Positions 7,285-63,855 of a stretch of 64,000 bases of DNA are shown here, piece by piece. The stretch is taken from assembly GCA_024760545.1 (NCBI GenBank), contig CP060501.1:4232036-4296035 (forward strand), given 5' to 3'. The stretch comes from Nitrospira sp. Its GTDB lineage: Bacteria; Nitrospirota; Nitrospiria; Nitrospirales; Nitrospiraceae. Position 1 is the stretch's first letter. Each line of letters begins with the position of its first letter. The position numbers and the translations under genes were made by a program. The notes under the pieces are model-generated. The model did no database searches. It saw only the letters and a list, made by a program, of their open reading frames with translations, and was not told where the DNA came from.

Positions 7285-7567
7285 GCAATCAAAGACGCCA
7301 AAAACGCGAGAGAAGAATATACTTAAAAGTGAAGACACTCCTTCATTCTATGCCAATAACATTGATTTGAGTGTATCTACTTGGGACTTTCGGCTAAAGG
7401 GAGGAGAAATAATACAGGCAAATAAGGATTCCATTACCATCAAAGAGCTATTCACTCTTTACCTTTCTCCTAACCATGCCAAGATGTTGTCTATTCTTCT
7501 TTCTGAAAGGGTGGCAGAGTATGAGAAAAGATTTGGTGAGTTACCGCTTCAACCTAAGGCCGACTAA
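7277..7567 (+). CDS. DUF3467 family protein
   Basis: 96-aa protein with the DUF3467 signature: FYANNIDLSVSTWDFRLKGG, then LYLSPNHAKMLSILLSERVA and YEKRFGELP near the end. Members are small soluble proteins of unknown function found in many bacteria. It overlaps the end of the XRE gene by 8 bases, so it is transcribed with the toxin-antitoxin pair. The Lys-rich N-terminus is variable in the family. Confidence 0.8.
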   Translation: MPKQSKTPKTREKNILKSEDTPSFYANNIDLSVSTWDFRLKGGEIIQANKDSITIKELFTLYLSPNHAKMLSILLSERVAEYEKRFGELPLQPKAD

Positions 7568-7630
7568 GCTTTTTCCATTGTGCAGTCGCTGCTTTCTATT
7601 AAACCGAACCAATGTGGAATTTGATTATTC

Positions 7631-7764
7631 GCCCTTAGAGGGCTTGCGTCATTTAGTAGGATGTGATAGCGCTTAAAAGTATCACATAGAATCCTTACAC
7701 ACCCAGAATACTCGGTGTCAAAAGGCATGTTGAGGAAGCACCATCCTCGGCATGCCTTTTTTTT
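7631..7764 (+). ncRNA. structured leader of alpA ending in an intrinsic terminator, element 1
   Basis: Four consecutive inverted repeats precede alpA: GCCCTtagAGGGC (7631-7643), ATGTGATA/TATCACAT (7661-7668 and 7680-7687), ACACC/GGTGT around 7699-7718, and AAAAGGCATG/CATGCCTTTT (7720-7729 and 7751-7760) followed by T8. The last is a textbook intrinsic terminator only 15 bases before the alpA start codon. It could end a small RNA or attenuate transcription into the replication genes. A clear promoter was not found. Confidence 0.6.
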
Positions 7765-7778
7765 GCCCGGAGGACACA

Positions 7779-8018
7779 ATGAATACAACAAATGAAGCCG
7801 ACCCAACCAACCTCGTAAATCCTGCGGCAATTCTTCGTCCCCAAGATGCTCAACGTCATGTGGCCTTGAGTCGCAGCTCCATCTATGCGCGGCTAGCGGA
7901 GAACGATTTCCCGAAGCCAATCAGACTTGGGCCCAGAGCAATTGGATGGCTCAAATCAGAACTCGACGAATGGCTCGCAAGCCGACCGCGTTCAGAGAGT
8001 AGGACGATGAAGCCATGA
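7779..8018 (+). CDS. AlpA-family transcriptional regulator
   Basis: 79-aa AlpA/MerR-like helix-turn-helix protein: ILRPQDAQRHVALSRSSIYA, then FPKPIRLGPRAIGWLKSELD and EWLASRP. In P4-like satellites and related islands, AlpA proteins activate excision or integrase expression. ATG at 7779 follows CCGGAGG; an upstream in-frame ATG lies inside the terminator hairpin and is rejected. Its stop overlaps the start of the 55-aa gene (ATGA). The homologue at 62970-63188 sits in the same position in element 3 but is clearly diverged. Confidence 0.85.
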   Translation: MNTTNEADPTNLVNPAAILRPQDAQRHVALSRSSIYARLAENDFPKPIRLGPRAIGWLKSELDEWLASRPRSESRTMKP

Positions 8019-8182
8019 CTCAGGACCTTGGCTTTGAGCATGTCGGGAACATACTCTCCGGGGTTCTCAAGGAAATTTCACGGCGTGCCGAATTGCGGCC
8101 TCGCGTCGAGGCCGAACGTCAGCAGTCAGTGAGCGATGAAGAGTTTCTGATGCTTGCCGAGAGGACTGGTGACCGCCTATGA
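8015..8182 (+). CDS. 55-aa conserved protein between alpA and primase
   Basis: 55-aa acidic-helical protein starting MTQDLGFEHVGNILSGVLKE and ending AERTGDRL. It overlaps alpA and the primase-like gene by four bases at each end (ATGA junctions), so translation is coupled. Element 3 has a diverged homologue of exactly the same length at 63185-63352 in the same place, which supports a real gene. Function unknown; a small partner of the replication proteins is possible. Confidence 0.7.
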   Translation: MTQDLGFEHVGNILSGVLKEISRRAELRPRVEAERQQSVSDEEFLMLAERTGDRL

Positions 8183-8685
8183 GTCATCCCACCCTCGACC
8201 AGATCATCACCTCCACACATGCCAAGCAGAACGGGTCGGACCAATGGCTGGGGCATTGCCCCGCCCACGGATCCCGGCAGAACCGTGACCTGAGTATTGC
8301 CCTGCGGGACGACAAGATCCTCCTCAACTGCTTCGCCGCCTGTCAGACCGAAGCGGTCTGTGGTGCGCTCGGCCTTGGCCTCACTGACCTGTTCCTCACA
8401 GCTCGAACCACTCCCAATGCGATGCGCCCTCGAACTCCATCGAAGCCGGTGGATCGTGCACACATTGCTTTTCAATTCGAGCTCGGTGCTCTCGATCGGC
8501 GCATGCGCGCCGAGCGGGTGCTCGAACAGGCTTCTGGACAGAATTGTGAAGTGACCGATAATGAACGGGACACGCTCATGGGGATTGTGGCGCGGGCTTA
8601 TGAAGACCTCGAGCGTGCAGAATGGCTCGAAGGCCTGGCTGACCACTTCCGTGAGTACTCCATCCGTCAAGGAAAGGCGGCATGA
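8179..8685 (+). CDS. CHC2-type zinc-finger primase-like protein
   Basis: 168-aa protein with an N-terminal zinc-binding module like the DnaG/P4 primase CHC2 finger: HCPAHGSRQNRDLSIAL then ILLNCFAAC, with likely ligands Cys27, His30, Cys51 and Cys55. No TOPRIM or catalytic primase domain follows. It probably recognises template DNA for the helicase encoded next, or is the separated finger of a split primase. It overlaps the helicase gene (ATGATGG). The copy at 63349-63855 is nearly identical in DNA. Confidence 0.8.
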   Translation: MSHPTLDQIITSTHAKQNGSDQWLGHCPAHGSRQNRDLSIALRDDKILLNCFAACQTEAVCGALGLGLTDLFLTARTTPNAMRPRTPSKPVDRAHIAFQFELGALDRRMRAERVLEQASGQNCEVTDNERDTLMGIVARAYEDLERAEWLEGLADHFREYSIRQGKAA

Positions 8686-9983
8686 TGGACGTAGCTGAGC
8701 TGGCAACCCTGTCTCGCCAGCACCTCTTGTCTGAATCCTCTGAGGACCTCCTGCTGACCCATACGGAAGTGAGCGGGCTGCATCGGCTGACCTCTCAGTC
8801 CTACCCACTGGAGTTTGTATTCGATCGGCTGGCGGAACGGCATGGCGAAGAGCGGGCCGAACTGACCGTTAACTACCTCGGGCGGCCTCTCATGGAGAGC
8901 ATCAGCGTCACGCTGACCTCTGCCGTGACCCATAAGAAACTTGCAGGCCAGCTTGAGGACCTCGTCAGCTCTGCACCCTGGGATCTGTTGCTCCCGCATG
9001 CCTGTGCGACGGTCTTGAAAAAGCATCGGGCTGGGGAGCCGCTCGTCACGATCTGCAGCCAGACCCCGATTGAGCCGCTCACCTTCAGCATCAACCCGAT
9101 CGTGTTCAAGGGCAAGATCTCCATTCTGTACTCGAATGGTGGGCAGGGAAAATCCACCTTCGCGTTGCTCTTGGCCATGCTCAGCTCGGTTGGTGGGTCC
9201 GTGGCCGGATTCTCGGCTCTGAATGGGAACAGTCTCTTTCTCGACTTCGAGGATGATGTGTCAGTCCATGCCCGTCGCCTCCAAGCCATTCAGATGGGCC
9301 ATCCTGACCTGCTGTCGGCTCGCGTGGCGTATCGGCGGTGCGTGGAACCGCTCCATAAGTTCGCGCCCATGCTCATCCGGCAGATCCAGCAGGACCACAT
9401 CCAGTTCGTCGTCGTGGACTCCATTCTGGCTGCGACAGGGGGCGATTCCAGCGCTGAGGCGACCACCCAGCTCTTTATTGCCTTACGAGCGCTCAATGTC
9501 TCGGTGCTGTTGATCGGGCATACGCCCAAGAACCTTGCAGAAGGACAAGACAGTCCCACGCTCTACGGCAGCGTGTTCAACTCGAATTTCGCCCGGGCGA
9601 CGTGGGAACTGAAGAAGGAGCAAGAGGTGGGCGAGGATCGGCTTATTATCGGGCTCCTCAATCGGAAGTCCAATCTCTCTCGGCTCCATGCGCCTATCGG
9701 CCTTCAGATTAGCCATGAGGACGGCGGGACCCGCATCACGTTTGAGCCCTATGACCTGGCCGACGTGCCGGATATGGCGGCGGAGCTGCCCCTTCCAAAC
9801 CGGATTCGGAATCTTTTGGAGAGCGACGGAACCCCTCGATACGCGAAAGCGATCGCGGATGAACTGGGAGCCTCGTTGCCCAATGTCCGCACGACCCTCT
9901 CCCGGAACGACGGACGAAAATGGGTGCACCTCCAAGGGGAGGGAAAAGAGCTCCTATGGACGGTCCTGAATGCCCGAAATTGA
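8682..9983 (+). CDS. RepA-like AAA/RecA-fold replicative helicase
   Basis: 433-aa ATPase of the RepA/RecA-fold type (AAA_25). Walker A is SNGGQGKST (residues ~151-159) and Walker B is SLFLDFEDD (~184-192). VVVDSILAATGGD and LLIGHTPK follow as helicase motif 3 and 4 equivalents. Such proteins are hexameric replicative helicases of plasmids and integrative elements, or initiators. The C-terminal ~60 residues look like a winged helix (IRNLLESDGTPRYAKAIADE). It directly precedes the iteron-like field at 9984-10149, which suggests origin recognition. A partial second copy begins at 63852. Confidence 0.85.
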   Translation: MMDVAELATLSRQHLLSESSEDLLLTHTEVSGLHRLTSQSYPLEFVFDRLAERHGEERAELTVNYLGRPLMESISVTLTSAVTHKKLAGQLEDLVSSAPWDLLLPHACATVLKKHRAGEPLVTICSQTPIEPLTFSINPIVFKGKISILYSNGGQGKSTFALLLAMLSSVGGSVAGFSALNGNSLFLDFEDDVSVHARRLQAIQMGHPDLLSARVAYRRCVEPLHKFAPMLIRQIQQDHIQFVVVDSILAATGGDSSAEATTQLFIALRALNVSVLLIGHTPKNLAEGQDSPTLYGSVFNSNFARATWELKKEQEVGEDRLIIGLLNRKSNLSRLHAPIGLQISHEDGGTRITFEPYDLADVPDMAAELPLPNRIRNLLESDGTPRYAKAIADELGASLPNVRTTLSRNDGRKWVHLQGEGKELLWTVLNARN

Positions 9984-10149
9984 TGTTCAACAACGATGTT
10001 CAACAAGGGTTGTTGTACAACAACATTTTGACATGTTGAACAAACCACTTAAGTGCTTGTTCTGAAAAGGAAACCATTGTTTAACATGAGTGTTGAAGAT
10101 GCATGTTGTACAACAGTCCCCCTCTCTTTAGAGAGGGGAGTGTTGAACA
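9984..10149. repeat. iteron-like TGTTnAACA repeat field, candidate origin
   Basis: Within 166 bases there are TGTTCAACA (9984-9992, 9997-10005), TGTTGTACAACA (10011-10022, 10104-10115), TGTTGAACA (10034-10042, 10141-10149), TGTTTAACA (10078-10086) and the near-match TGTTGAAGA (10091-10099). A perfect hairpin CCCCTCTCtttaGAGAGGGG lies at 10120-10139. The repeated palindromic half-site TGTTG, directly after a RepA-like gene, fits a replication origin or an autoregulatory operator. Confidence 0.6.
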
Positions 10150-10300
10150 TGTTGTTAAAGAGAAGAGGGAAACCCATGAGGAAGGACCTCACGAAGGTGA
10201 ATCAGGTGGCTCAGGGGAATGCGGCAGCCGATCCGGTTCTGAACTAGAGGAAAAGAGAATGCCGTTTGAAAAAGGAAGAGAAAAGACGGGAGGCAGGCAG

Positions 10301-10606
10301 ATGGGCACCCCCAATCAAGCCACGGTTGAATTTAAGGAGTTCTGGCAGCAGTTTTTTGAATCTGAGGAATATCGCGAGAACTTAAAGACAAGGCTGCTGG
10401 CCGGCAAAGCCGATCACATGGAGCGCTATGCGGCGGAGTTATTGTACGGGCGGCCACGCCAAGAGATCAGCGTAGAGGACAACGCCCTCAGCATCACCAT
10501 CAACAGGGGGCTCGTCGGTGACCGCCCGCAGAACGGCCCTGTGCTGATCGAGGATCAGGCCACACGTGGCATCATAGACGACAGCAGGGCCGATAACGGG
10601 ATGTGA
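10301..10606 (+). CDS. hypothetical protein of the replication module
   Basis: 101-aa protein from MGTPNQATVEFKEFWQQFFE, with a helical first half (YRENLKTRLLAGKADHMERY) and an acidic, probably flexible C-terminus. The ATG at 10301 has GGGAGG eight bases upstream; the open frame extends much further back through the repeat field but is low complexity there. The phrase DHMERYAAELLYGRPRQ is reminiscent of small phage packaging or terminase-adjacent proteins, which is not enough for an assignment. It overlaps the next gene by one base. Confidence 0.6.
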   Translation: MGTPNQATVEFKEFWQQFFESEEYRENLKTRLLAGKADHMERYAAELLYGRPRQEISVEDNALSITINRGLVGDRPQNGPVLIEDQATRGIIDDSRADNGM

Positions 10607-10866
10607 TGAAGCAACCACTGCTCACCAAGCGCCTGTATAGCCTGCCGGAAGCGGCCATGTATCTGGGCCGGTCGACCTGGTCGATACGTCGACTGATCTG
10701 GAATGGCGAGCTCCCCCAGGTTCGTGCCGGGGGCCGAGTCCATGTGGATGTCCGGGACCTGGACGAGTTCATTGACAAGAACAAGGTCTGTGAGGAAGCG
10801 GCTCATTCCGTATGGCGGCAGCTTGACACAGGGAAAGCAGATCTGTTATCTAACCAGATAACATGA
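10606..10866 (+). CDS. excisionase-like helix-turn-helix protein
   Basis: 86-aa DNA-binding protein: LYSLPEAAMYLGRSTWSIRR, then WNGELPQVRAGGRVHVDVRD and LDEFIDKNK. This is the MerR/excisionase (HTH_17) pattern, where a winged helix binds att-site DNA and bends it. It lies three genes before the integrase, the expected place for a recombination directionality factor. The start ATG overlaps the previous stop (ATGTGATGA). Confidence 0.8.
   Translation: MKQPLLTKRLYSLPEAAMYLGRSTWSIRRLIWNGELPQVRAGGRVHVDVRDLDEFIDKNKVCEEAAHSVWRQLDTGKADLLSNQIT
10823..10862 (+). promoter_or_regulatory. promoter with operator abutting the XRE start codon
   Basis: TTGACA (10823-10828), a 17-base spacer and TTATCT (10846-10851) form a good sigma70 promoter. 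A perfect inverted repeat GTTATCTaaccAGATAAC (10845-10862) covers the -10 box and ends at the base before ATG 10863. The transcript would have a leader of about five bases or none. Autorepression by the XRE protein is inferred. Confidence 0.65.
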
Positions 10867-11045
10867 GAATTAGGGCTATCCGTGAAGCAAAAGGACTATC
10901 AATTCGGGCACTCGCCGCGAAGGCCAAGATGGGCTATCCGTTCCTGTGTAACGTCGAGAATGGCAAGGCAGACCCATCACTGAGTACGCTGAGGCGGCTC
11001 GCCAAGGCTTTGAAGGTAAAAGTCGTGGAGCTTATTGACGAGTAG
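10863..11045 (+). CDS. XRE-family repressor
   Basis: 60-aa single-domain Cro/CI-type regulator: MRIRAIREAKGLSIRALAAK, FLCNVENGKADPSLSTLRRL and AKALKVKVVELID. It consists of just the five-helix HTH fold. It lies 11 bases before the integrase gene and directly behind an operator-promoter, so it most likely controls itself and integrase expression. The equivalent gene in element 2 is at 27413-27625. Confidence 0.85.
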   Translation: MRIRAIREAKGLSIRALAAKAKMGYPFLCNVENGKADPSLSTLRRLAKALKVKVVELIDE

Positions 11046-11056
11046 GGAGGACGCTT

Positions 11057-12388
11057 ATGGGCATGCTCTATCGGCGAAAGAAACGCGATCCCATCACGCA
11101 AGCCTTGGTCGAGTTCGGCCCATGGTGGATGAAGTATTACCGGCAAGGACGACCCTTCTACGAAAGCACGGAGACTGAGGATAAGACCGAAGCCCGGCGC
11201 AAGTTGAAGAAACGAGAGGGGGAGGTCGCATTAGGACTGCACTATGGCCCACAGGTCGAGCGTACGAAGTTTGAGGATCTCGTGATCGGGATCCAGCAAG
11301 ACTACACGATGAACGCCCGTAAGACCTTACGGCGCTTGCAAGAGTATGTGGCTCACTTATCCGGTTTCTTCAGCCATATGCGGGCCTCAGCCATCACCAC
11401 AGACAAGATCAAGGCTTACATCACCCAACGCCAGGAAGCGGGCGCGGCGAACGGCACGGTGAACCGAGAGATTGGGATCTTAAAGCGGATGTTTCGCCTG
11501 GCCCATCAACAGACGCCCCCCAAAGTCGCCCGGATTCCCTATATCCCAATGCTGGAGGAGCGCAACATTCGATCGGGCTTTTTTGAGCACGAAGACTTTT
11601 TGGCTCTTCGCGGGGCCTTGCCGGATTATGCCCAGGTGACGGTGACCCTTGCCTATTACAGCGGGATGCGAATGGGGGAAGTGTCCTCGCTACAGTGGAA
11701 TCAGGTCAATTGGTTGGAAGGCAAACTCTACTTGCGAGCTCAGGACACCAAGACCGATACACCACGGGTTCTCTATCTCACTGGTGACTTACTGCGGGTC
11801 CTGACGGCCTGGAAGCAGCGCTGTGATCAGAATTGGCCACAATGCTCGTGGATTTGTCACCGGGGCGGAGTGCGGCTGGAATCGCTTAAGCATTCGTGGA
11901 GGAAGGGTTGTGAAGCGGTAGGGCTCGGAAGAATGACTGAAGTTGAAGGCACAGAGGAAAAGGTATGGGTTGGAAAGATCCCGCATGATTTCCGTCGCAC
12001 TGCCGTTCGAAATATGGTTCGCGCTGGCGTCCCCGAGAAGGTGGCCATGGCGATCAGCGGACACAAAACTCGATCTGTGTTCGATCGGTATAACATCGTA
12101 AACGAAGCGGATCTCGAACGCGCCGCACGTTCTTTGACGGAATATTTTGAACGGGAAAAATCAAAAATGGTTACACTTTCGGTTACACCAGCAAAATGGA
12201 ATGAGCGGGTGAGGGGAGAGGACGAAGCCGAACTGGTTGGAATGTCAGCGGGAAGTGTGGAGCTGGCGAGAGGAATCGAACCTCCAACCTGCGGTTTACA
12301 AATCAGTTACAAGGGGTTGTTCAAGTCTTTGAAGATTTGGGCAATCCCTCCTTCCTTCAATCACAGAGCCAATTTCGTTGTCGTTTGA
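11057..12388 (+). CDS. tyrosine recombinase / integrase of element 1
   Basis: 443-aa phage-type integrase. There is an N-terminal arm-binding segment (~1-60), a SAM-like core-binding domain (~70-150), and a catalytic domain with Arg205 (SGMRMGEV), probable Lys232, His310 and Arg313 (HDFRR), His336 (SGH) and the nucleophile Tyr345 (VFDRY). All catalytic residues are present. The C-terminal tail from about residue 400 is unusual: ELARGIEPPTCGLQ is the translation of the tRNA 3' end at 12258-12302, so the gene reads through its own attachment site. The original protein probably ended earlier. It defines the right end of element 1. Confidence 0.93.
   Translation: MGMLYRRKKRDPITQALVEFGPWWMKYYRQGRPFYESTETEDKTEARRKLKKREGEVALGLHYGPQVERTKFEDLVIGIQQDYTMNARKTLRRLQEYVAHLSGFFSHMRASAITTDKIKAYITQRQEAGAANGTVNREIGILKRMFRLAHQQTPPKVARIPYIPMLEERNIRSGFFEHEDFLALRGALPDYAQVTVTLAYYSGMRMGEVSSLQWNQVNWLEGKLYLRAQDTKTDTPRVLYLTGDLLRVLTAWKQRCDQNWPQCSWICHRGGVRLESLKHSWRKGCEAVGLGRMTEVEGTEEKVWVGKIPHDFRRTAVRNMVRAGVPEKVAMAISGHKTRSVFDRYNIVNEADLERAARSLTEYFEREKSKMVTLSVTPAKWNERVRGEDEAELVGMSAGSVELARGIEPPTCGLQISYKGLFKSLKIWAIPPSFNHRANFVVV
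12258..12302 (-). repeat. attachment site, tRNA-Thr 3' fragment, element 1/2 junction
   Basis: On the minus strand this reads TTTGTAAACCGCAGG, then the T arm with TTCGATT, an acceptor strand and CCA. This is the 3' half of a tRNA with apparent anticodon TGT (Thr). The 5' half does not follow at 12303, so it is an att fragment and not a gene. It matches 28811-28855 with one mismatch in 45 bases and overlaps the end of the integrase gene. Confidence 0.8.
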
Positions 12389-12419
12389 CTTCGTACCCCT
12401 TCATCTCAATTCAGCCCGT

Positions 12420-12636
12420 CTTGTTGCTGGGACTAACACCCTAATAACACCTGTCACCCCGGGATGATCGGCAGACCCCCCACCCCCCTTAGGAATGGGT
12501 CCCATATTGGATTTGCAGCACCTGGACAAAAGGATGACTTGGGATTAATCTGGCCAGAATAAGTGCTGGCTATCGATTAGATTTCTTGCTTTTTGCAGCG
12601 TGGCTGCCTCTGCCTTCAACGAGATATTGTCCCGCC
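12420..12636 (+). repeat. dispersed GGGTCCCATATTGG repeat, copy 1
   Basis: The core at 12497-12533 reads GGGTCCCATATTGGATTTGC then AGCACCTGGACAAAAGG. It is preceded by a less conserved arm with GATGATCGGCAGACC and a C-run. Same-strand copies occur at 14403, 15891, 46682, 51427 and 54150, with a degenerate copy near 18389. The rest of this intergenic stretch is empty. Confidence 0.6.
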
Positions 12637-14046
12637 TTATTTCTGGACACGTCCTGACACTTGAGCAAGCACTGTTTCTATAGTCTCGTAGACACAATTC
12701 GCGACGGCGGTATTGCCTTGTGGCGAATAGTGGCTATCCAGGAACCGGACAGCAGGATCTAACTCTAACAGGCAGGGACTGGGATCAATGTAGGGAATGC
12801 TGGCCTGATCCAACATTCGCTTCCCGAGGGATAGGGGTGTGCTGAGGCTCTGAAGATCTGTCCTACTAGGGAACCACACCACGAGAGGAATCGACCCCGC
12901 TTCTTCGGCCGACCGTATAAACGTCCTCAAAATCTCTATATTGGTCGACAGAATGGCTTCTTCAGAGAAGTTGGCCCCCGGGGCCGACCAAGCGGGAAAC
13001 AGACTCGTGATCAGGCGAACGAGATAAGAAGCATGATACCACCGTTTTTGCCAGTCGCCCGGTCGGTAACCAATGTCATACTTGATAGAGGGAAGTGTCG
13101 AAATCCTTGGGGCGGAAAAGATTTCCTCAGGGGAAAGCGGATTCGGATTGATGTTCTGAATCTCTCCATCTCGCAGAACAAACCGAGATTTTGAGAAAGG
13201 TAGGCCCCAACCACTGGACACAAAGGGATAGACCCACATCGTGCGGGTGAGATCGTAGTCGATGAAGCCGAAGATCACCACTTTCGGCTTCCACTTGACC
13301 ACTTCTGTTTCGTATCGTAGATATGCTTGGCCGAGGCTATATCCCGGAACCCCAAAGTTGAGGACCCTATAGTCGTCACCCAGCATCTGATCTACCTTAT
13401 CTCCCCAGGTCTCTTGAAATATCACCTCATCGCCGAACGCAAAGGAATCCCCTATGATGGCAATATCCGTCTTTCGTTTGAGCTTGACGTACGAAACATC
13501 CTGATCTGCGGCGCGGATCTTTTCTTTGCTTGACCAATAGGGTCCTTCCCCCTTATCGAAACTATACCTATTTACTCCGAGGGTCCATCCCATGTGGTCA
13601 TCATGGACGAAGAACGCACGGTCAGAGCGGCTCTTCTCGACAAAGGGCCGGTAGTCGCGTTTCGTCAGCTCCCAATCCCTCGGCTTCAACACGGTGTTCC
13701 CGACCTTTTCACGACCCAAGTCATGACGCACGACGGCTCGGACGGCGAGCTCACCGAGGACAAGGATAACTACCACTGTGATGAGATGCATCGTGACGAT
13801 CAAACGGAAGGAGCGTGAAGGCGACCGCTTGTGGGTGAGATATCGTCTCAGAACGAGTGTCCCACCTATAAACAAGGTAGCAAGAGCACACCCAAATGCC
13901 AGGCCTGGCCGACTGGAGAGGAAGACGTCGAAAGGCCGTGCACCTTTCATATGCAGGGCGGTCATTACCACCGCCGTCGAAACTTCTAAAACGAAAAGGG
14001 AGGCAAGCAACAGCACATCGCGCCGTGAGACTTCATTGGCAGCCAT
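12637..14046 (-). CDS. membrane-anchored SGNH/GDSL-type hydrolase
   Basis: 469-aa protein. Three hydrophobic segments near residues 10-30, 47-66 and 82-104 anchor it in the inner membrane. The C-terminal domain has the SGNH block I motif IAIIGDSFAFGD (Ser201 as nucleophile), a block III-like FGVPGYSLGQ with Gly, and a late DSHYSPQGN that supplies the block V Asp and His. SGNH enzymes of this layout usually remove or transfer acyl groups on exported glycans or lipids; the substrate is unknown. It is the first gene right of the attachment site in element 2 and is transcribed toward it. Confidence 0.82.
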   Translation of the reverse strand: MAANEVSRRDVLLLASLFVLEVSTAVVMTALHMKGARPFDVFLSSRPGLAFGCALATLFIGGTLVLRRYLTHKRSPSRSFRLIVTMHLITVVVILVLGELAVRAVVRHDLGREKVGNTVLKPRDWELTKRDYRPFVEKSRSDRAFFVHDDHMGWTLGVNRYSFDKGEGPYWSSKEKIRAADQDVSYVKLKRKTDIAIIGDSFAFGDEVIFQETWGDKVDQMLGDDYRVLNFGVPGYSLGQAYLRYETEVVKWKPKVVIFGFIDYDLTRTMWVYPFVSSGWGLPFSKSRFVLRDGEIQNINPNPLSPEEIFSAPRISTLPSIKYDIGYRPGDWQKRWYHASYLVRLITSLFPAWSAPGANFSEEAILSTNIEILRTFIRSAEEAGSIPLVVWFPSRTDLQSLSTPLSLGKRMLDQASIPYIDPSPCLLELDPAVRFLDSHYSPQGNTAVANCVYETIETVLAQVSGRVQK

Positions 14047-14628
14047 TGCAGCCCCTGCCCTGAGTGAGGAAAAGAAATGGGAGAGAGTCGTTTTTGAGCT
14101 GACTTTTGAACATCACATGATCTTGTCGGTGGGTTTCTGTTTCGTCGCTAAGTGAAGTCGTAGAAGCGACATCATAGACTCTAGGGGCTTACCCCAGCCT
14201 TCGCCTACTAGGCAATCCCCTAGGATCAATTATTAACGCCTAAGTTAATTTAGTTTTATTGAAGATACAATTCCATTGGCGGTGAGACATCTGGATCATT
14301 TAGATTTCCTCTGTATCCATTTCCCCCTCTTAGGACAGAAATGGCTCAGACTTTGCTCCCCTATCAAGAGCATGATCGAGCCCCCCACCAGGAAATGTAT
14401 TTGGGACCCATATTGGGTTTGCAGCACCAGGGCAAAAGGAGGCGGTAGGCGAATTGCAGCCTTAACAGAGGCTATTAAAATCCGTCTGGCAAGATCGTCT
14501 TGTCACCTGCGGCTTGATTAATTTGTGGATATCGACCATCCTCTTGTCGATTCAAAAAGAAATTTTGAGTTCAACACAAGAACAGGAGACATTTCCTGGC
14601 CGTTTCGTTCGCGTATCCCCTTCCTGGC
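14047..14628 (+). other. intergenic region with dispersed repeat copy 2
   Basis: The 580 bases hold a GGGACCCATATTGGGTTTGC then AGCACCAGGGCAAAAGG repeat at 14403-14440, preceded by a C-rich arm. An AT-rich stretch near 14220-14280 could hold promoters for the SGNH gene. No gene is recognised. Confidence 0.5.
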
Positions 14629-15765
14629 TTAAGGGCACTCGGAATAACAGACGTTCTGATAGGTAAAGACATTTGGCGCGGTGGGGTTAATCGTGAGTTT
14701 GAGCCATTCATTCGGTACATTGGTGGAGCCTTGCACCGTGATGCGCGTGAGGTTTGGCACGGGTTGCGTTGAGTGTATCGGAGAAAGGACCACACCACCG
14801 GTACAGCCAGTGGTCGTCGTGGTATTCACACATCCGGTTCTATCGGTCGGATCCAATGGTCGGTCCACCCGATAGCGATGCGTATCACCGTTGAGCAACA
14901 GCACGGGGCCTCCATAGGCGACGGCCTTAGTGGCCAGCGCCTGCACAAACGCACGATAGCCTGTCAGCCCATCACCACCAGCCGCCGTTGCCGTGAGATC
15001 CCACATGTCGGCCTGAATGGCGATCACCACCGCCCCGGCCTTCTTGGCTTGGGCAATCTTAAACGCTCGGTTTAGCCAGCGCAGATTGGCCGCGTTGCGG
15101 TCCGTGACTTCCTGCTGACGAGCCGATTCGTTTAAGAACGGCGAACCCGTGCCGCCATTCCAGCGCAACCCATCGTTGTTGGAGCCGGGGATGTTCAACG
15201 TGATGAAGACCACATTGGACTGGGTCCACATGACGTTCTCCACGAACTGCGCATCCGCGGGGACCGTAAATTCCTGGGCTTGGGACTTCACTTCTTTTGG
15301 GGTGCCGCCAATGGTGTACCCCGGAATCGGGAAAAATAGCTGGCGGACAGCCGCCAGTTCATTCAAGGGGTAGCCGCTGGTAGATTCCTTTGCTTTGTGG
15401 CAGTCCGTCCACTCATTATCACCAGGGGTATAGACGAAGGGATCAGTGAATTTCTGAAAGATATCAAAAATCTCCTGATTATAATGAGGCAGAGCGGCTG
15501 TGGGGATCGGGCTCAATCCTGCGCCTGTGCAGGGCTGGCTCCCTGCGTGGATATCGCCGACGTGGATCACGAGGCTCACATCGGGATCGTTGTTGACCGA
15601 GTTGTAGAGGAGTGGCGCATTCGTTTTTAGGGTGGAACTATAGGGCCATCCACCAAACACGGCGACCGTCAGCGGGCTGCTAGGATGTTCTGCCAGCGCT
15701 GCGCTCGTGCATACGAGACTGGCCACCGCATACACGGTCGCCAATCGTAGAGACTTTCTCAGCAT
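14629..15765 (-). CDS. secreted calcineurin-like metallophosphoesterase
   Basis: 378-aa protein from MLRKSLRLATVYAVASLVCT, with a signal peptide cleaved after SAALA. Metallophosphatase motifs: VIHVGDIH (residues ~60-67, metal ligands), YTPGDNEW (Asn/His-type GDNE box), and NGDTHRYRVD near residue 290. The GNHE box has become GDNE, as in several secreted members. Probably a periplasmic or extracellular phosphoesterase. ATG 15765 is preceded by GAGGGGAAGGAC; a longer frame upstream lacks a signal sequence. Cysteines near the C-terminus may form disulfides. Confidence 0.85.
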   Translation of the reverse strand: MLRKSLRLATVYAVASLVCTSAALAEHPSSPLTVAVFGGWPYSSTLKTNAPLLYNSVNNDPDVSLVIHVGDIHAGSQPCTGAGLSPIPTAALPHYNQEIFDIFQKFTDPFVYTPGDNEWTDCHKAKESTSGYPLNELAAVRQLFFPIPGYTIGGTPKEVKSQAQEFTVPADAQFVENVMWTQSNVVFITLNIPGSNNDGLRWNGGTGSPFLNESARQQEVTDRNAANLRWLNRAFKIAQAKKAGAVVIAIQADMWDLTATAAGGDGLTGYRAFVQALATKAVAYGGPVLLLNGDTHRYRVDRPLDPTDRTGCVNTTTTTGCTGGVVLSPIHSTQPVPNLTRITVQGSTNVPNEWLKLTINPTAPNVFTYQNVCYSECP

Positions 15766-16207
15766 TGTCCTTCCCCTCTCAGTGGAAGTAACCATAAACC
15801 CCAGTACACGAACCATTCCCGCTAACTACTGGTAGCAACCTCCTCCGCAAGCCCCCCTCGCACCGGCATACCCCCACCGGCTTAGGTAACGGGTCCCATA
15901 TTGGGGTTGCAACGCCAGGGCAACAAAACTGAAGGATCTATGCAATTAACTAAGGGGTGTCGGCTTAGTGTGATAACCATACAAGACAGCGCTTCACTAT
16001 TCACTTCTTCGTCAATCTTCCTATACTTTGTTGGCCCACTATCTGTTATCCCAAGCAGCCTTCTCACGTGTAACTCTTTAGTTCTACATATTAGTACTCC
16101 AGAATATCTTTAGGGCATTCAGGTTGCTGTTATAGACTTTAGGAAGTATGCAGAATGAACCGTGCGCGAATACCTCATACTTCCCAGAGAATGATTAGGA
16201 GACAATG
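15766..16207 (+). other. intergenic region with dispersed repeat copy 3
   Basis: The repeat core lies at 15891-15926 (GGGTCCCATATTGGGGTTGC...) behind the arm CACCGGCATACCCCCACCGG. Bases 15940-16190 are AT-rich and gene-free; they probably carry the promoter of the gene at 16208. Confidence 0.5.
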
Positions 16208-16564
16208 ATGGCTAATATGGTTGCAGGTTTCTTCTGCACTCGCACACACGCGGAACAGACGAAGTCCGAACTCGCAAAGTTCAAGAATATTCCTGCTATC
16301 CATATGCAGGTCTACGACCACCCCGGGGTTCAGCCCATGGCCCGTACCGACAGAAGCTGGTGTGACAGTCTTAAGGACTACCTTGGATTTGGTCACTCAA
16401 GTCAGGCTCTGTACCCTGAAGGCGTTCGGCGTGGCGGGCCGGTTCTCGAGGTCACAGCTGAGGCGTGTCACATCAACGCGATTGCCGCTTTGTTGAATCG
16501 ATGCGGGGCGGAGGACATCTCGATCTTCACGGCAGCAGAGGCGACGGTTGGGCAACAAGAGTAG
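16208..16564 (+). CDS. general-stress YflT-like small protein
   Basis: 118-aa soluble protein starting MANMVAGFFCTRTHAEQTKS. The FxTRTHAEQ start followed by a helix, a short strand with IHMQVYDH and a C-terminal helix (CHINAIAALLNRCGAEDISI) resembles the ferredoxin-like domain of heat- or stress-induced YflT proteins. The identity is moderate, so the name is tentative. AGGAG at 16197-16201 favours ATG 16208 over the ATG three bases earlier. No catalytic motif is visible. Confidence 0.5.
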   Translation: MANMVAGFFCTRTHAEQTKSELAKFKNIPAIHMQVYDHPGVQPMARTDRSWCDSLKDYLGFGHSSQALYPEGVRRGGPVLEVTAEACHINAIAALLNRCGAEDISIFTAAEATVGQQE

Positions 16565-16616
16565 TCTCCTACGATATTTATCAAGGCAACCACACCACTG
16601 TATTGCCCCGCTTCTG

Positions 16617-16850
16617 CCACTCGCATGGTGGCAGGGGTGTGGATCAATCCATAACCCTTTCCTTCCTCGTCGTGCCTCTTGCTCCAACGCTTCAAGCGCT
16701 GTATTGCCTGGCGCATACTTCCGATACCACCAGCACCGACCTTCTTTGACTTACTCTGTATCGTGACATTCTGGGCGAGCTCAAGTTGGACCTGGCTTGT
16801 TTCCCTCGCTCTCCAAAGGTCTGCTTCTTCCCTCCCATAGCCGTTGGGCC
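16617..16850 (-). pseudogene. thermonuclease C-terminal remnant 1
   Basis: Pieces in different frames match the intact thermonuclease at 18791-19252: KKQTFGER..KQA..NLS near 16800-16850, then an internal deletion, then LEQEARRGRKGLWIDPHP near 16625-16680. The natural stop is lost by a one-base deletion. It is not functional. Confidence 0.65.
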
Positions 16851-16876
16851 TTACAAGAGACGCACCATTTTTCTGG

Positions 16877-17617
16877 TCACTGTTTTACACATTCGATCAG
16901 CACTGCAGGAGGGTGAGCGAGATAGTCATTCCAGAATGCTCCATCCTCCATCCCCTGTGGATGGGGAGAAACCTCCGGCAAATGAACTTTGAAATCCTGG
17001 AATCCTGCCGCAGTAAACGCGTTCTCGTATGCCTCTAGGGGTAAATAGTAGTTCTCGATCTGGATTGAGGAGTCATCGAGATAGACCGTCCAGACGATTG
17101 GAGCGCCTTCATAGGCGTGGTCTGTGAGCGTAATCGTGAAGCCATATTTCCGATAATCCGTATGCCTGAAGGTGTAGAGATCAGGATTCCCGGTGAAGGT
17201 GACGAACCGTCCTCCTGGCTTTAAACGGCTCGCGAGCCCACGACACATGGCCAAGAGCTCGTCCTGGTTACGTGCGTAGACCAAGAGCCAGGCGGACACC
17301 GCGAGATCGAACTCCTGCTGAACTCTTTCTGTACAGGCATCTTCGACGCGGTATGTAATGCCCAGCGGATGATGCGCTTCCTGATCGAGGGCTAAACGAA
17401 TCATGGCTTCAGAGAGATCAATGCCTACGACTTGACCCGCACCCCACTGCCGGAGTTTGCGTGTGTAGAACCCTTCTCCACAGGCGACATCCACGACTTT
17501 TTTCCCTTCAATGTTCCCGAGACGCTTCAGTATGGAAAACGTCTCGATCCGCGAACGCCACGGATGCTCTTTGCATTGCTTATATTGCGAGGCAATCGCG
17601 TTATAGTCAGTGGTCAT
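16877..17617 (-). CDS. class I SAM-dependent methyltransferase
   Basis: 246-aa protein with the class I fold: motif I VVDVACGEGFYTRKL (residues ~41-55), motif II VVGIDLSEAMIR, acidic motif near VEDACTE, motif IV FDLAVSAWLLVY and post-IV RLKPGGRF. The N-terminal DYNAIASQYKQ is the usual cap helix of ubiE/small-molecule methyltransferases. The substrate is unknown. It stands alone on the minus strand in a region of small stress genes. The assignment to family is firm. Confidence 0.88.
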   Translation of the reverse strand: MTTDYNAIASQYKQCKEHPWRSRIETFSILKRLGNIEGKKVVDVACGEGFYTRKLRQWGAGQVVGIDLSEAMIRLALDQEAHHPLGITYRVEDACTERVQQEFDLAVSAWLLVYARNQDELLAMCRGLASRLKPGGRFVTFTGNPDLYTFRHTDYRKYGFTITLTDHAYEGAPIVWTVYLDDSSIQIENYYLPLEAYENAFTAAGFQDFKVHLPEVSPHPQGMEDGAFWNDYLAHPPAVLIECVKQ

Positions 17618-17974
17618 CAGTTTTCATCCGATAGCCAAAGGAACGACGTAGAAGTTACCACAGCCTGCCGCAATCCGCACACCCTCCCACCCGTCGTGGT
17701 TCTGAGACTCTCTTGAGGCATTCGCCACCGGGGCAAAATGGGAGAGCTACACTCTTACCCTAGGGGTCTTCTTAGTGGGGTAATCATACAAAATAGACCT
17801 CTCACACTCTCATTTATGCGACACATTTATATTGGTACTGCCTGTAGATTCTAAGTAGTTTCACGTGTAAGTCATTACATCTACGTACGAATCGCTCATA
17901 GTGTTCTGGGCATATCCTTCCTGGCATTCAACTTGCGGTTATCTTGTGGGGGGCGGCTTACAAGGGAGGTGGAT
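17618..17974. other. intergenic, degenerate repeat only
   Basis: A weak echo of the dispersed repeat (CGCCACCGGGGCAAAATGGG) lies near 17722-17742. No gene, terminator or strong promoter is seen otherwise. Confidence 0.4.
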
Positions 17975-18313
17975 ATGCAACAGGGATTGCATGTGCCCAG
18001 AACAATCAGGGCGGCCTTGTTTGTCCAATATGAATGGCATCTCACGCCGAGAGGATGGATTCTCGGGGGGTGGTGTACACCTGAATCGGTCACCTCACCA
18101 ACGCCGCCTCCAGATGATCGTGTTGAGACATGGATGATCACAGCAACACCCTACAAGAACCTGTGCGTTCCTGCGCAACAGCAATGGTCGCTCGTCTGGG
18201 TCTCTTCTCAACATAGTGCGGCCCAGCGACGCGCATTACGGGCGTGGCATCGTCTGCCCGCGCAAGGGTGGGAGGATTCTACGCCCACCTCTTGGGACTT
18301 TCCTCTGAACTAG
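17975..18313 (+). CDS. WHLTPRGW-family protein, copy 1
   Basis: 112-aa protein with YEWHLTPRGWILGGW (~32-46), PPPDDRVETW (~62-71), QWSLVWVSSQH (~88-98) and a C-terminal TSWDFPLN. Two paralogues in this window, at 39326-39637 and 55535-55840, share all four blocks in the same order. The Trp-rich, strand-forming sequence suggests a compact beta domain. No known family is recognised. ATG 17975 follows AAGGGAGG. The N-terminus is about 12 residues longer than in the paralogues. Confidence 0.65.
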   Translation: MQQGLHVPRTIRAALFVQYEWHLTPRGWILGGWCTPESVTSPTPPPDDRVETWMITATPYKNLCVPAQQQWSLVWVSSQHSAAQRRALRAWHRLPAQGWEDSTPTSWDFPLN

Positions 18314-60777: not shown

Positions 60778-61302
60778 TTGATAGGCATCGCATCTGTTGT
60801 TCATCGTCCTGGCTATGTCGAACGATATAAAGACCGTTACAAGAATTCTCTGTGGTTCATGTGTAGGACCGCATTTACTATCTTAGTAGAGCGTTCAGTA
60901 AAGTATGCGGATGAGAATGGTCGAACGCTCGAAATTGTGTTTGAGGGAGCAGGTAAGAGAGAGGATAGGGACATGATACTTTATCTAAAGGAACTCAAAC
61001 GGACCGGCAATCCATTTAGTCAAAGTGCCTCTGAAGGCTATGCCCCATTGACAGGACCTGATTTTCAGCGTGTAATTTTAGGTGAGCCGCATCGGAAGAC
61101 TAAGCTCGTGCCCATGCTACAGATTGCCGACTTAATTTTGTATCCAATCGCAAAGGGCGGGTACGAGACGACATATCAATCCTATTTCAGGCTCATGGAA
61201 GGTGGAAAACTAATTGACTGCGCGTTGTCGAATGATCAAAAGGCACTGCGAGGAATAAAGTATAGTTGTTTTGATTTCAAAAAAACTAAAGGCCCGGAGT
61301 GA
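60778..61302 (+). pseudogene. DUF3800 protein, 5'-truncated
   Basis: The frame from 60778 matches the C-terminal two-thirds of DUF3800 proteins: FTILVERSVKYADENGRTLE, IVFEGAGKREDRDMILYLKE, LVPMLQIADLILYPIAKGGY. The N-terminal strand with the conserved DES/DExG acidic motif is missing, and no ATG with a ribosome site is present. DUF3800 proteins are RNase H-like and often element-borne. Probably inactive. Confidence 0.65.
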
Positions 61303-61881: not shown

Positions 61882-62676
61882 ATGCGAACTGAGCAGGACG
61901 TAGTTCGAGCTTGGACAGCCAATGAAATCCTTTTGCGCGAGAAAGTGCACCCGCTTGTCATCGAGCCTTTGGGGCAGCCCCCTGGACTTCGAACTGAAAC
62001 AGAGTGAGAGTACATTCTCGCCGCCTTTCTTGGCCGTTGCTTTGATTCCTTTAGGTCAATCCAAGTCTTATGTAATCCAAAGAATGAGGCTCACCTGTGG
62101 ATCGATGCATACATTCTTAGCCGCTCAATATTTGAAGTGGATGTAACATTACGCTGGTGCAAGAAGAAACCATGTAACCTTGATAGGTTTGTGGATGATT
62201 ATCATTTGAAGGTCGCCCAAATGTTTGATTCGCTTTCCGAGCCACAAAAGGCTGATGTGGCGTCAGAGAGGCAAGCGCAGATACGGGAGCGAGAAGCGAG
62301 GGTTCTTGAGAGGTATCAACGCGGACATGGAACGATGAGTGTCATGAAGAGCCTTGAACAGATTTGCAAAGAACTGAGTCAGAACGAGCCCGAGCCAAAT
62401 ACCCTATGGGAATATAACAAACTCTACAGAGAAGCATCGAGTTTTGCGCATCCCACTATGTGGCACCTCTTCTCATATCGCGCCAAGCTTTCACCCGTTA
62501 CTGAAGTGACTCCCTCGCCGGATACCGGATATTGGGCACTCCTGATTTCCGGAGGGTGCTTCTTACGCATTCTGGGACAATGGAATAATCAGTTCAAGCG
62601 TCTGCCGGAACCGCAACCGTTCGAATGGATGGTCGAATGGGAAAGGACGTCAGGACAGGATAAGAATGATCATTAG
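61882..62676 (+). pseudogene. DUF5677-like protein with an internal stop
   Basis: A 265-codon frame starting MRTEQDVVRAWTANEILLRE is interrupted only by TGA at 62005-62007 (TETE-stop-EYILAAFLGR). The remainder reads HLWIDAYILSRSIFEVDVTL, a helical DUF5677-like middle (YNKLYREASSFAHPTMWHLF) and a C-terminal helix. A single substitution would restore it. Family call is tentative; role unknown. Confidence 0.6.
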
Positions 62677-62747
62677 GCTCATGAAGGGATTACTTGCATT
62701 GGGGATGGGGGAAAGAGACCAATTAGGGAGATACGATTAGAGATGTC

Positions 62748-62776
62748 TTGACAGATATTTTGGAGTGTGTTAGGGT
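62748..62776 (+). promoter_or_regulatory. promoter of the element 3 replication leader
   Basis: TTGACA (62748-62753), exactly 17 bases, TAGGGT (62771-62776). The transcript would start near 62783 and run through the structured leader into alpA. Confidence 0.6.
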
Positions 62777-62782
62777 GCTTTT

Positions 62783-62932
62783 GTCAAAATAGTGACGACG
62801 ATCTTAGTCGGTGGAGAGGCTGACAGCCTCGAAGATCCCAAAGGACTTCCACCGATGAGCGCGGTAAGCTGACAGCTAGGCCGAGCGAGACGTGATCCAG
62901 GATACTAACTGGTCACCTCACTCGGCCTTTTT
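62783..62932 (+). ncRNA. structured leader RNA with terminator, element 3
   Basis: Downstream of the promoter, CGGTGGA (62809-62815) pairs with TCCACCG (62848-62854) and encloses the hairpin GAGGCTgacAGCCTC (62816-62830). A second small hairpin AGCTgacAGCT lies near 62868-62878. The end is a long terminator: GGCCGAGCGAG (62879-62889) with CTCACTCGGCC (62917-62927) and T5, with an inner GTGATCCAG/CTGGTCAC stem. The alpA start is 38 bases after the T-run. A short RNA of about 150 bases is predicted, as in termination-based immunity of P4-like satellites. Confidence 0.6.
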
Positions 62933-62969
62933 ATTTGTCCGACAGGTGGCCGAACCCAGGAGGCACGCC

Positions 62970-63188
62970 ATGCCGGACAATATCTCCAACCATTCTGCGG
63001 TTCTTCGCATCAAAGACATTCAGCGCCTGATCTCACTGAGTCGCAGTGCGATCTATTCTCGCTTGTCAGACCTCGACTTCCCAAGACCAATCAAACTCGG
63101 ACCTCGTGCAATCGGTTGGCTGAAATCTGACATCGAAGCGTGGCTTGCAGGTCGGCCTCGCTCTGCAGATAGCAGGAGGGCGAAATGA
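62970..63188 (+). CDS. AlpA-family regulator, element 3
   Basis: 72-aa AlpA-type HTH protein: VLRIKDIQRLISLSRSAIYS, FPRPIKLGPRAIGWLKSDIE and AWLAGRPRS. It aligns with 7779-8018 but DNA and N-terminus are diverged. CCAGGAGG precedes ATG 62970. Overlaps the 55-aa gene by four bases. Confidence 0.85.
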   Translation: MPDNISNHSAVLRIKDIQRLISLSRSAIYSRLSDLDFPRPIKLGPRAIGWLKSDIEAWLAGRPRSADSRRAK

Positions 63189-63352
63189 GTCATTCAAAAG
63201 GTTTTGAGCCCATCGGCGACATAATCCCAGACGTTCTGAAAAAGATTTCCCAGTGCGCTGAGCTGCGCCTTCGGCTCGAAGCGGAGCTTGGCAGACCAGT
63301 CAAAGATGATGAATTTCGTGTTCAGGCGGAAAGGGCAGGGTGCTGGCTATGA
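63185..63352 (+). CDS. 55-aa conserved protein, element 3
   Basis: 55-aa protein MSHSKGFEPIGDIIPDVLKK ... DDEFRVQAERAGCWL. Same length, position and overlaps as 8015-8182, with about 40% shared residues (GFE..G.I...L..IS..AELR.R.EAE). The divergence followed by near identity of the next gene marks a recombination boundary. Confidence 0.7.
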   Translation: MSHSKGFEPIGDIIPDVLKKISQCAELRLRLEAELGRPVKDDEFRVQAERAGCWL

Positions 63353-63855
63353 GTCATCCCATCCTCGACCAGATCATCACCTCCACACATGCCAAGCAGA
63401 ACGGGTCGGACCAATGGCTGGGGCATTGCCCCGCCCACGGATCCCGGCAGAACCGTGACCTGAGTATTGCCCTGCGGGACGACAAGATCCTCCTCAACTG
63501 CTTCGCCGCCTGTCAGACCGAAGCGGTCTGTGGTGCGCTCGGCCTTGGCCTCACTGACCTGTTCCTCACAGCTCGAACCACTCCCAATGCGATGCGCCCT
63601 CGAACTCCATCGAAGCCGGTGGATCGTGCACACATTGCTTTTCAATTCGAGCTCGGTGCTCTCGATCGGCGCATGCGCGCCGAGCGGGTGCTCGAACAGG
63701 CTTCTGGACAGAATTGTGAAGTGACCGATAATGAACGGGACACGCTCATGGGGATTGTGGCGCGGGCTTATGAAGACCTCGAGCGTGCAGAATGGCTCGA
63801 AGGCCTGGCTGACCACTTCCGTGAGTACTCCATCCGTCAAGGAAAGGCGGCATGA
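63349..63855 (+). CDS. CHC2-type zinc-finger primase-like protein, second copy
   Basis: 168-aa protein differing from 8179-8685 by essentially one residue (MSHPILDQ for MSHPTLDQ). Zinc ligands Cys27, His30, Cys51 and Cys55 are kept. Near identity at DNA level while upstream genes are diverged indicates recent exchange or duplication of the replication module. Confidence 0.82.
   Translation: MSHPILDQIITSTHAKQNGSDQWLGHCPAHGSRQNRDLSIALRDDKILLNCFAACQTEAVCGALGLGLTDLFLTARTTPNAMRPRTPSKPVDRAHIAFQFELGALDRRMRAERVLEQASGQNCEVTDNERDTLMGIVARAYEDLERAEWLEGLADHFREYSIRQGKAA

Follow-up and report, generated by a model that had tools for sequence, protein, structure and literature searches.

The window, the whole 64,000-nucleotide stretch of DNA analysed here, comes from a Nitrospira sp. 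genome of 4.8 Mb in two contigs, and close to its end begins an operon of an integrated element. All genes of this operon lie on the + strand in the order alpA, a gene for a 171-aa protein, an AAA_25 ATPase, a 139-aa protein, an HTH_17 protein and a tyrosine integrase, those after the 171-aa gene being located beyond the window end. The first gene after the leader described below is alpA (62970..63188, +), which encodes 72 aa and matches Pfam PF05930 (E 3.8e-16). The 171-aa gene (63340..63855, +) belongs to no Pfam family and has relatives in three of the elements compared below (G320, G147 and G256), of which the G147 protein shows a sub-threshold CHC2 zinc finger; the gene probably has a role in replication. 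The integrase frame ends over a tRNA-Ser gene, the insertion site of the element, and a second copy of the tRNA 3′ end was looked for and not found. Around the same tRNA-Ser gene, a second integrase gene on the opposite strand (L002 9399-10742) overlaps the end of the first, and part of the tRNA-Ser recurs as an exact 41-base copy 16 kb further on (9466-9506 and 25838-25878 of L002+L003). Apparently, this tRNA-Ser is also used by a neighbouring element.

The leader ahead of alpA is composed of a series of features on the + strand. Its promoter (62748..62776) has a -35 box TTGACA (62748-62753), a 17-base spacer and a -10 box TAGGGT (62771-62776) that is preceded by TG, as read from the sequence, and the RNA probably starts near 62783. 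The predicted RNA opens with a 5′ hairpin, GUCA-aaauag-UGAC (62783..62796), followed by ACGAUCUU (62798..62805), the 5′ strand of a putative antiterminator whose partner in the nascent RNA is 62887-62893. Next comes a three-way junction (62808..62855), supported by folds and two-sided changes and made up of P1, the outer stem of eight pairs TCGGTGGA/TCCACCGA (62808-62815/62848-62855), P2, the inner hairpin GAGGCTGACAGCCTC (62816-62830) with loop UGACA, and P3 (62833-62838/62843-62847). P4 (62859..62886) contains a small hairpin, AGCTGACAGCT (62867-62877), with the same UGACA loop as P2, and in its outer part GC and CGGU pair with GCCG and GC of the terminator 5′ arm. The intrinsic terminator (62878..62936) consists of a stem (62878-62928) running into TTTTTATTT, with the U tract at 62928-62936; its 5′ arm includes GAGACGU (62887..62893), which is also the antiterminator 3′ strand and uses the AC bulge of the terminator stem. 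The alpA ATG at 62970 lies 38 bases past 62932 and 33 bases from the U tract. As RNA, 62783-62936 folds at -64 kcal/mol, compared with a mean of -41.8 (sd 3.95, z -5.62) for shuffles, none of 200 being as good, and the terminator hairpin by itself reaches -25.3 kcal/mol.

A sequence-only reading of this DNA had listed a sigma70 promoter, a nested hairpin, a small hairpin and a strong terminator 38 bases before alpA, and all of these are present. A perfect inner hairpin does sit within an outer stem, although that stem has eight pairs, not seven, and the promoter combines a perfect -35 box with a weak -10 box, which matches the consensus at three of six positions. A simple consensus scan of the window listed neither the leader promoter nor its terminator, because the -10 box is weak and the stem is interrupted. 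Three other readings of local features were tried and dropped: a leader peptide, since the five-codon frame from 62855 exists in the window copy alone and its ATG is missing in the other four leaders; a DNA operator or iteron made of GCYGACAGC, whose three window copies are equalled in 11 of 100 shuffles and whose arm letters covary and include a G-U pair, which suits RNA rather than a DNA operator; and copies of the terminator arm elsewhere in the window, where four matches at ≤2 mismatches were found and 9 of 100 shuffles gave as many.

To find relatives, the leader DNA was searched in 395 genomes of the phylum, with at most two candidates per genome scored. Four strong matches were obtained besides the window's own (E 4.1e-31 to 3.5e-49), and the next match was at E 7.8e-4 over 26 bases. 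All five leader-bearing genomes (the window genome, G204, G147, G256 and G320) belong to one genus, G320 being marked as the same species as the window genome, and the leader stands directly before alpA in all five elements. A covariance model, R1, built from the five leaders recovers the same five in 175 genomes of the family and, with stricter filters, in the 395 genomes of the phylum. With the window AlpA as query, 6 of the 175 family genomes match at E 1e-6, five of which have the leader; the sixth (G070, 39% identity) is without it, and it is also absent from genus member G091, whose AlpA is added by the Pfam model. Exact patterns in genome and viral contigs and distant BLAST in plasmids and phages gave nothing convincing beyond the five. 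One candidate, L042, was rejected as a chance match within a long coding frame, its single covariance match (E 5) lying elsewhere, and L043 and L044 had no covariance match. Likewise, none of 11 viral alpA loci, 26 alpA loci of the phylum (including the second one of the window) and 25 viral pattern loci gave a significant R1 match, the best scoring 10.9 bits (E 0.71).

A second alpA of the window genome (ATG 7779) is 63% identical to the first and has an unlike leader. At 7640-7790, this gene has a strong terminator of its own (-24.3 kcal/mol), which stops 19 bases short of the ATG and is preceded by the hairpins TGTGATA/TATCACA and ACACC/GGTGT, in a sequence unrelated to the leader at 62.8 kb; the leader of this second alpA, folded without the terminator arm, gave no comparable antiterminator. 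A terminator before alpA is not a general rule. Among 31 surveyed loci, 16 were without a usable frame (10 with no AlpA frame and 6 with a wrong one); these 16 include all five leader loci, which were examined separately. None of 14 AlpA-like starts outside the leader family had, at a distance of up to 60 bases, a hairpin that reached -10 kcal/mol and ended in a T-rich tail, while the window's other alpA has one.

The five elements carrying the leader are inserted at four different tRNA genes: tRNA-Ser in the window, tRNA-Leu in G204 and G147, tRNA-Pro in G256 and tRNA-Phe in G320. Four of these are delimited by copies of the tRNA end, with positions in joined regions (G204 9236-17381, G147 7443-17109, G256 10407-18085 and G320 8221-16486), giving sizes of 7.7 to 9.7 kb. 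Their replication genes differ in part: the window element has AAA_25, G204 has DUF3854 and G147 has DUF3631, of which relatives occur in G256 (66%) and G320 (30-31%). The G204 and G147 elements differ in cargo and replication genes, but they may derive from one insertion, because they share the site, similar flanks and integrases that are 94% identical. The cargo ahead of the leader also differs between elements: in G204 it includes a dCTP deaminase-type anti-phage protein (L053 9794-11308; PADLOC dCTPase, E 5.9e-155), and in G147 a protein with a DpnII-MboI-type nuclease domain that resembles the PADLOC Aga_Helical-REase models (L057 10610-11491; E 2.2e-12). DUF3800 proteins are encoded ahead of the leader in two of the five, in the window (60778-61302; E 8.7e-4, just under the curated score) and in G256 (L055 12123-12923; E 1.2e-5).

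Against this variable background, the leader is conserved. Pairwise identity is 71-85% between leaders, 31-50% over the 300 bases ahead of the promoter and 61-83% between alpA genes. Although the window integrase shares only 29-32% identity with the other four, the window leader agrees with that of G204 at 112 of 131 positions (85%). The leader thus moves together with alpA and is retained as the genes around it vary. An exact TTGACA occurs at the same place before the leader in all five, 43-53 bases ahead of the ACG strand, whereas the -10 boxes of the homologs have just three or four of six matches and G256 is without a clear one; conservation is thus better evidence for the promoter than the consensus scan. 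In each of the five, this promoter, with its weak -10 box, is followed by an intrinsic terminator ahead of the first gene (-23.0 to -34.4 kcal/mol for the hairpin in the other four), so that the structured leader with early termination before alpA and the replication genes, as the sequence-only reading had it, is shared by the homologs.

One may argue that this is an ordinary insulating terminator next to an unrelated small RNA, with alpA either silent or served by its own weak promoter. The terminator is indeed strong, and the interval of 33 bases from U tract to ATG would be compatible with a weak start nearby. However, the last ORF of at least 90 aa before the leader is directed away from it in four of the five elements, that of the window being directed towards it, and the terminator would therefore hardly serve an upstream gene; the G204 leader is also preceded by a mechanically called 79-aa TTG frame on the + strand. 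Furthermore, an insulator has no need of a nearly invariant 5′ arm with a bulge, nor of a leader that is more conserved than alpA, as is the case in 8 of 10 pairs, and we regard this explanation as very unlikely.

The predicted structure is conserved as well. In the alignment of the five leaders (A5), 90.5% of 189 cells are paired, a figure that falls to 28-43% when columns are slid by 1-3; as A5 was fitted to the model structure, with the 5′ hairpin and the Shine-Dalgarno region left out, such pairing figures lean towards that structure. Eight pairs are changed on both sides, compared with 3.7 in shuffles (2 of 500 have as many), and the covariation score is reached in 0 of 500 shuffles, while the number of further pair types is unremarkable (reached in 53/500). 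The two-sided changes fall in P1 (three pairs), P2 (two) and P3 (one), and the covariance search in homologous leaders that the earlier reading proposed has thus brought out compensatory changes. The five outer pairs of P4 that were counted are kept in all five leaders, with one one-sided change. The loops of P2 and P4 are both YGACA, the exception being UUACA in P4 of G320. A 5′ hairpin is possible in four of the five with differing letters (that of the window, GUGU/ACAC, UGCGGC/GCCGUA and GCUGC/GCGGC) and is absent in G320; the GCUGC/GCGGC form, in G147, appears in the read-through fold and not in the leader-only fold.

In folding calculations, the leader can adopt two folds that exclude each other. 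When the alignment and each of the five sequences were cut before the terminator 3′ arm and folded, the 5′ segment (ACGnUCU) paired with the terminator 5′ arm (AGACGU) in all five, closing a domain, and outer P4 paired the remaining part of that arm (GGU with GCC or ACC); each of these two pairings excludes the terminator. The closing helices are ACG-UCUU/GAGACGU in the window, GUCUU/GAGAC in G204, ACGU-CUA/UAGACGU in G147 and ACGUU/GACGU in G320, and in G256 ACG-CUC/GAG-CGU if the cut is made at column 101, a later cut giving a different pairing of the same arm. In the window, the closing helix has a probability of 0.80-0.95 until the terminator 3′ arm starts emerging. When the RNA is lengthened step by step, 5′ hairpin included, and the 4 to 7 pairs possible in the given sequence are counted (a choice made once the cut folds were known), the helix reaches 0.84-0.97 in the five leaders once its strand is complete and stays at ≥0.58 in four of them until the 3′ arm emerges, whereupon it falls to 0 and the terminator rises to 0.94-1.0; in G256, it soon gives way to another upstream pairing of the same arm.

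The statistical support for this pairing varies among the leaders. Upstream pairing of the arm is above that of dinucleotide shuffles in 399 of 400 cases for the window, 374 for G204, 313 for G256, 387 for G147 and 387 for G320, so that shuffles equal G256 in 87 and G204 in 26 of 400 cases, which makes the support weak for the former and modest for the latter; summed over the five, the pairing is above 400/400, although the sequences are related and this does not amount to five independent tests. When just the 10-base 5′ segment is shuffled, the observed summed energy is reached in 21 of 2000 trials with each sequence shuffled apart and in 51 of 2000 by column. Covariation in the closing helix is limited to one two-sided change, a G to U in the G147 arm matched by U to A in the 5′ strand (pair 8-92), and shuffled 3′ letters do as well in 308 of 500 cases; this pair is not formed in G320 nor, in these columns, in G256. 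The RNAalifold consensus of the cut alignment omits the closing helix, in part because the position of its bulge varies, and when the 5′ segment is shuffled by column, 370 of 2000 trials reach a consensus energy as low. The antiterminator accounts for two features that would otherwise have no evident role, namely the AC bulge conserved in the terminator and the ACGnUCU of the 5′ strand. Since the terminator fold exceeds the blocked-arm fold in stability by 16.5 to 21.8 kcal/mol, the leader is most naturally read as OFF by default, and an effector would need tight binding or a kinetic mode of action.

The same segment bears on processive antitermination, in which nut- or put-like hairpins would recruit a factor, for example that of a helper phage, and make polymerase ignore the terminator. 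Two conserved YGACA hairpins right ahead of the terminator would suit such a mechanism, and the 5′ segment CGATCTTA resembles the boxA motif. However, by eye, the boxA-like letters occur in the window copy only, those of the other four being different, and the closing helix accounts for them; the boxA reading was dropped for this lack of conservation, and we consider nut- or put-like control most improbable.

A second potential lock lies at the start of alpA. TTGTCCG, which follows the U tract directly, forms a hairpin (62935..62980, +) with CGGACAA, which overlies the beginning of alpA. This hairpin covers the Shine-Dalgarno sequence (62958-62963) and the AUG at 62970, and GGUGGCC pairs across the Shine-Dalgarno sequence. 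The fold of the alpA start region is below all 59 control starts in three of the five elements, below 57 in G320 and below 51 in G204; these controls come from the five regions and the window, which overlap by 6 kb, so that a few may be counted twice. In addition, the third base is kept in all five in codons 2 and 3 of alpA, as it is in just 9 of 64 codons with the ATG counted, a pattern that would follow if the sequence there were constrained by its role in the RNA.

Taken together, the leader is real, conserved and switch-like in layout, and from sequence and calculation it combines two exclusive folds with a second hairpin and a gap of only 33 bases between U tract and ATG. We favour, with somewhat better than even confidence, the view that it is a cis-acting transcription attenuator of riboswitch-like layout that keeps the alpA-replication operon off until a signal acts. 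According to this model, RNA polymerase would start near 62783, and before the terminator is complete, the ACGnUCU/AGACGU antiterminator would close a domain comprising the P1-P3 junction and the extended P4. Once the terminator 3′ arm emerges, the more stable terminator would displace the antiterminator, and transcription would stop 38 bases before alpA. A factor recognising the domain, for which the two near-identical YGACA loops would be the obvious handles, would hold the antiterminator in place and let polymerase pass, and the read-through RNA would still be locked by the hairpin over the alpA Shine-Dalgarno sequence and AUG. The switch would thereby gate excision and replication of the element, the former because AlpA relatives trigger excision. 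Transcription from this promoter, an OFF default and the existence and nature of an effector are all predicted here, as is the link to excision. In PICMI satellites, AlpA is sufficient to trigger excision, and alpA expression is necessary and sufficient for activation, according to the available text of PMC10803314. On the other hand, AlpA of Gram-negative PICIs activates its own promoter, as stated in the available part of PMC10111431, and such control at the protein level has no need of this RNA and counts against a switch.

The sequence-only reading had instead pointed to phage P4, where, by analogy, the terminated leader would be processed to a stable RNA that pairs in trans with the nascent leaders of incoming or excised copies and so confers immunity. 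The setting is the same, with a promoter and early termination ahead of replication genes, and with the G147 AlpA as query, a relative was found in P4 at 33.9% identity, presumably Vis; moreover, the terminated RNA could leave its ACGnUCU segment free. In P4, the CI RNA pairs with seqA and seqC and provokes termination (PMC10111431 and PMC4825925, as far as their accessible text goes), a likewise RNA-level early termination before the replication genes of an AlpA-type element. In contrast, the internal pairing of the present leader opposes termination, excluding the terminator. The Rfam search gave no match to C4 (RF01695) or isrK, with no family at gathering score in the window and none at E up to 5 in 62600-63100, and no recurrent complementary target was found outside the leader: the best complements in the 600 bases upstream and about 900 bases downstream are near the shuffled level (5/60 to 60/60 as good), and their places differ among the five. 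Immunity of the P4 type is thus unlikely here.

Plasmid replication control offers another precedent. Exclusive folds are typical of the plasmid rep attenuator class, and with the pIP501 RNAII/RNAIII and pT181 rep attenuators, termination in a leader likewise limits the replication genes of a mobile replicon. In counter-transcript attenuation of this type, an antisense RNA would block the antiterminator and copy number would set termination, with the same two folds as in our model. The leader has exclusive folds ahead of replication genes, as well as two hairpins with similar loops, which recalls the need for two loop pairs in pIP501, whose antisense RNA causes attenuation in the rep leader (PMC4981023, in the text available, the loop-pair requirement being taken from a title cited there). 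Weak antisense promoter-like sites with starts 9-23 bases inside alpA are present in all five elements; 10 of 300 shuffles give a summed score as high, this range of starts having been picked after a first antisense scan. However, the best single antisense scores are 6 to 8, where 12 stands for two perfect hexamers, and shuffles of the region around the beginning of alpA equal each of them in 26 to 146 of 300 cases; the hexamers differ among the five leaders, and the loops match YUNR, the U-turn pattern, in part of the sequences only. The leader, compared with plasmid attenuators through plasmid and Rfam searches, also differs from them in that alpA is its first gene and translation is seemingly locked too. 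We hold counter-transcript control to be unlikely, although an antisense RNA may still be the effector.

In transcriptional riboswitches and protein-sensing leaders, several helices make up a 5′ domain, and the helix that closes it competes with the stem of a terminator. This layout fits the leader, but the leader matches no Rfam class and has been found only in mobile elements of one genus. The elements themselves resemble Gram-negative PICIs and PICMIs in having an integrase, alpA, a replication gene, insertion at a gene end and a small size, while differing in that alpA comes first and the integrase last. The available parts of the PICI and PICMI descriptions (PMC10803314, PMC10111431) mention no such leader RNA directly before alpA, and no description of such an alpA leader was found among the literature matches listed, the alpA of PMC2864571 being, by the text available, a Helicobacter adhesin gene. 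Attenuation of the first operon of a mobile element is thus a known kind of control, whereas no precedent for this RNA, for its translational lock or for its location ahead of alpA came up in the searches made.

The silence and waking of small AlpA-type elements are largely open questions outside well-studied hosts, and for PICMIs, helper activation of early genes is named as one in the accessible text of PMC10803314. As a conserved RNA that heads the alpA operon in elements inserted at four different tRNA genes, the leader is a concrete and mutable candidate for the decision switch, and its two exclusive helices lead to sharp predictions. A bolder proposal, which we put forward only tentatively and consider somewhat doubtful, is that the leader represents a new class of mobile-element RNA, a switch that contains two YGACA-loop hairpins in tandem, senses a ligand or a protein and, through antitermination together with start-codon unmasking, would time the excision and replication of a tRNA-integrated element. 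If true, the sensed factor could be a helper-phage or host stress product, and the leader would be an RNA-based induction sensor replacing a repressor protein. If an effector binds, the RNA would report what these elements sense.
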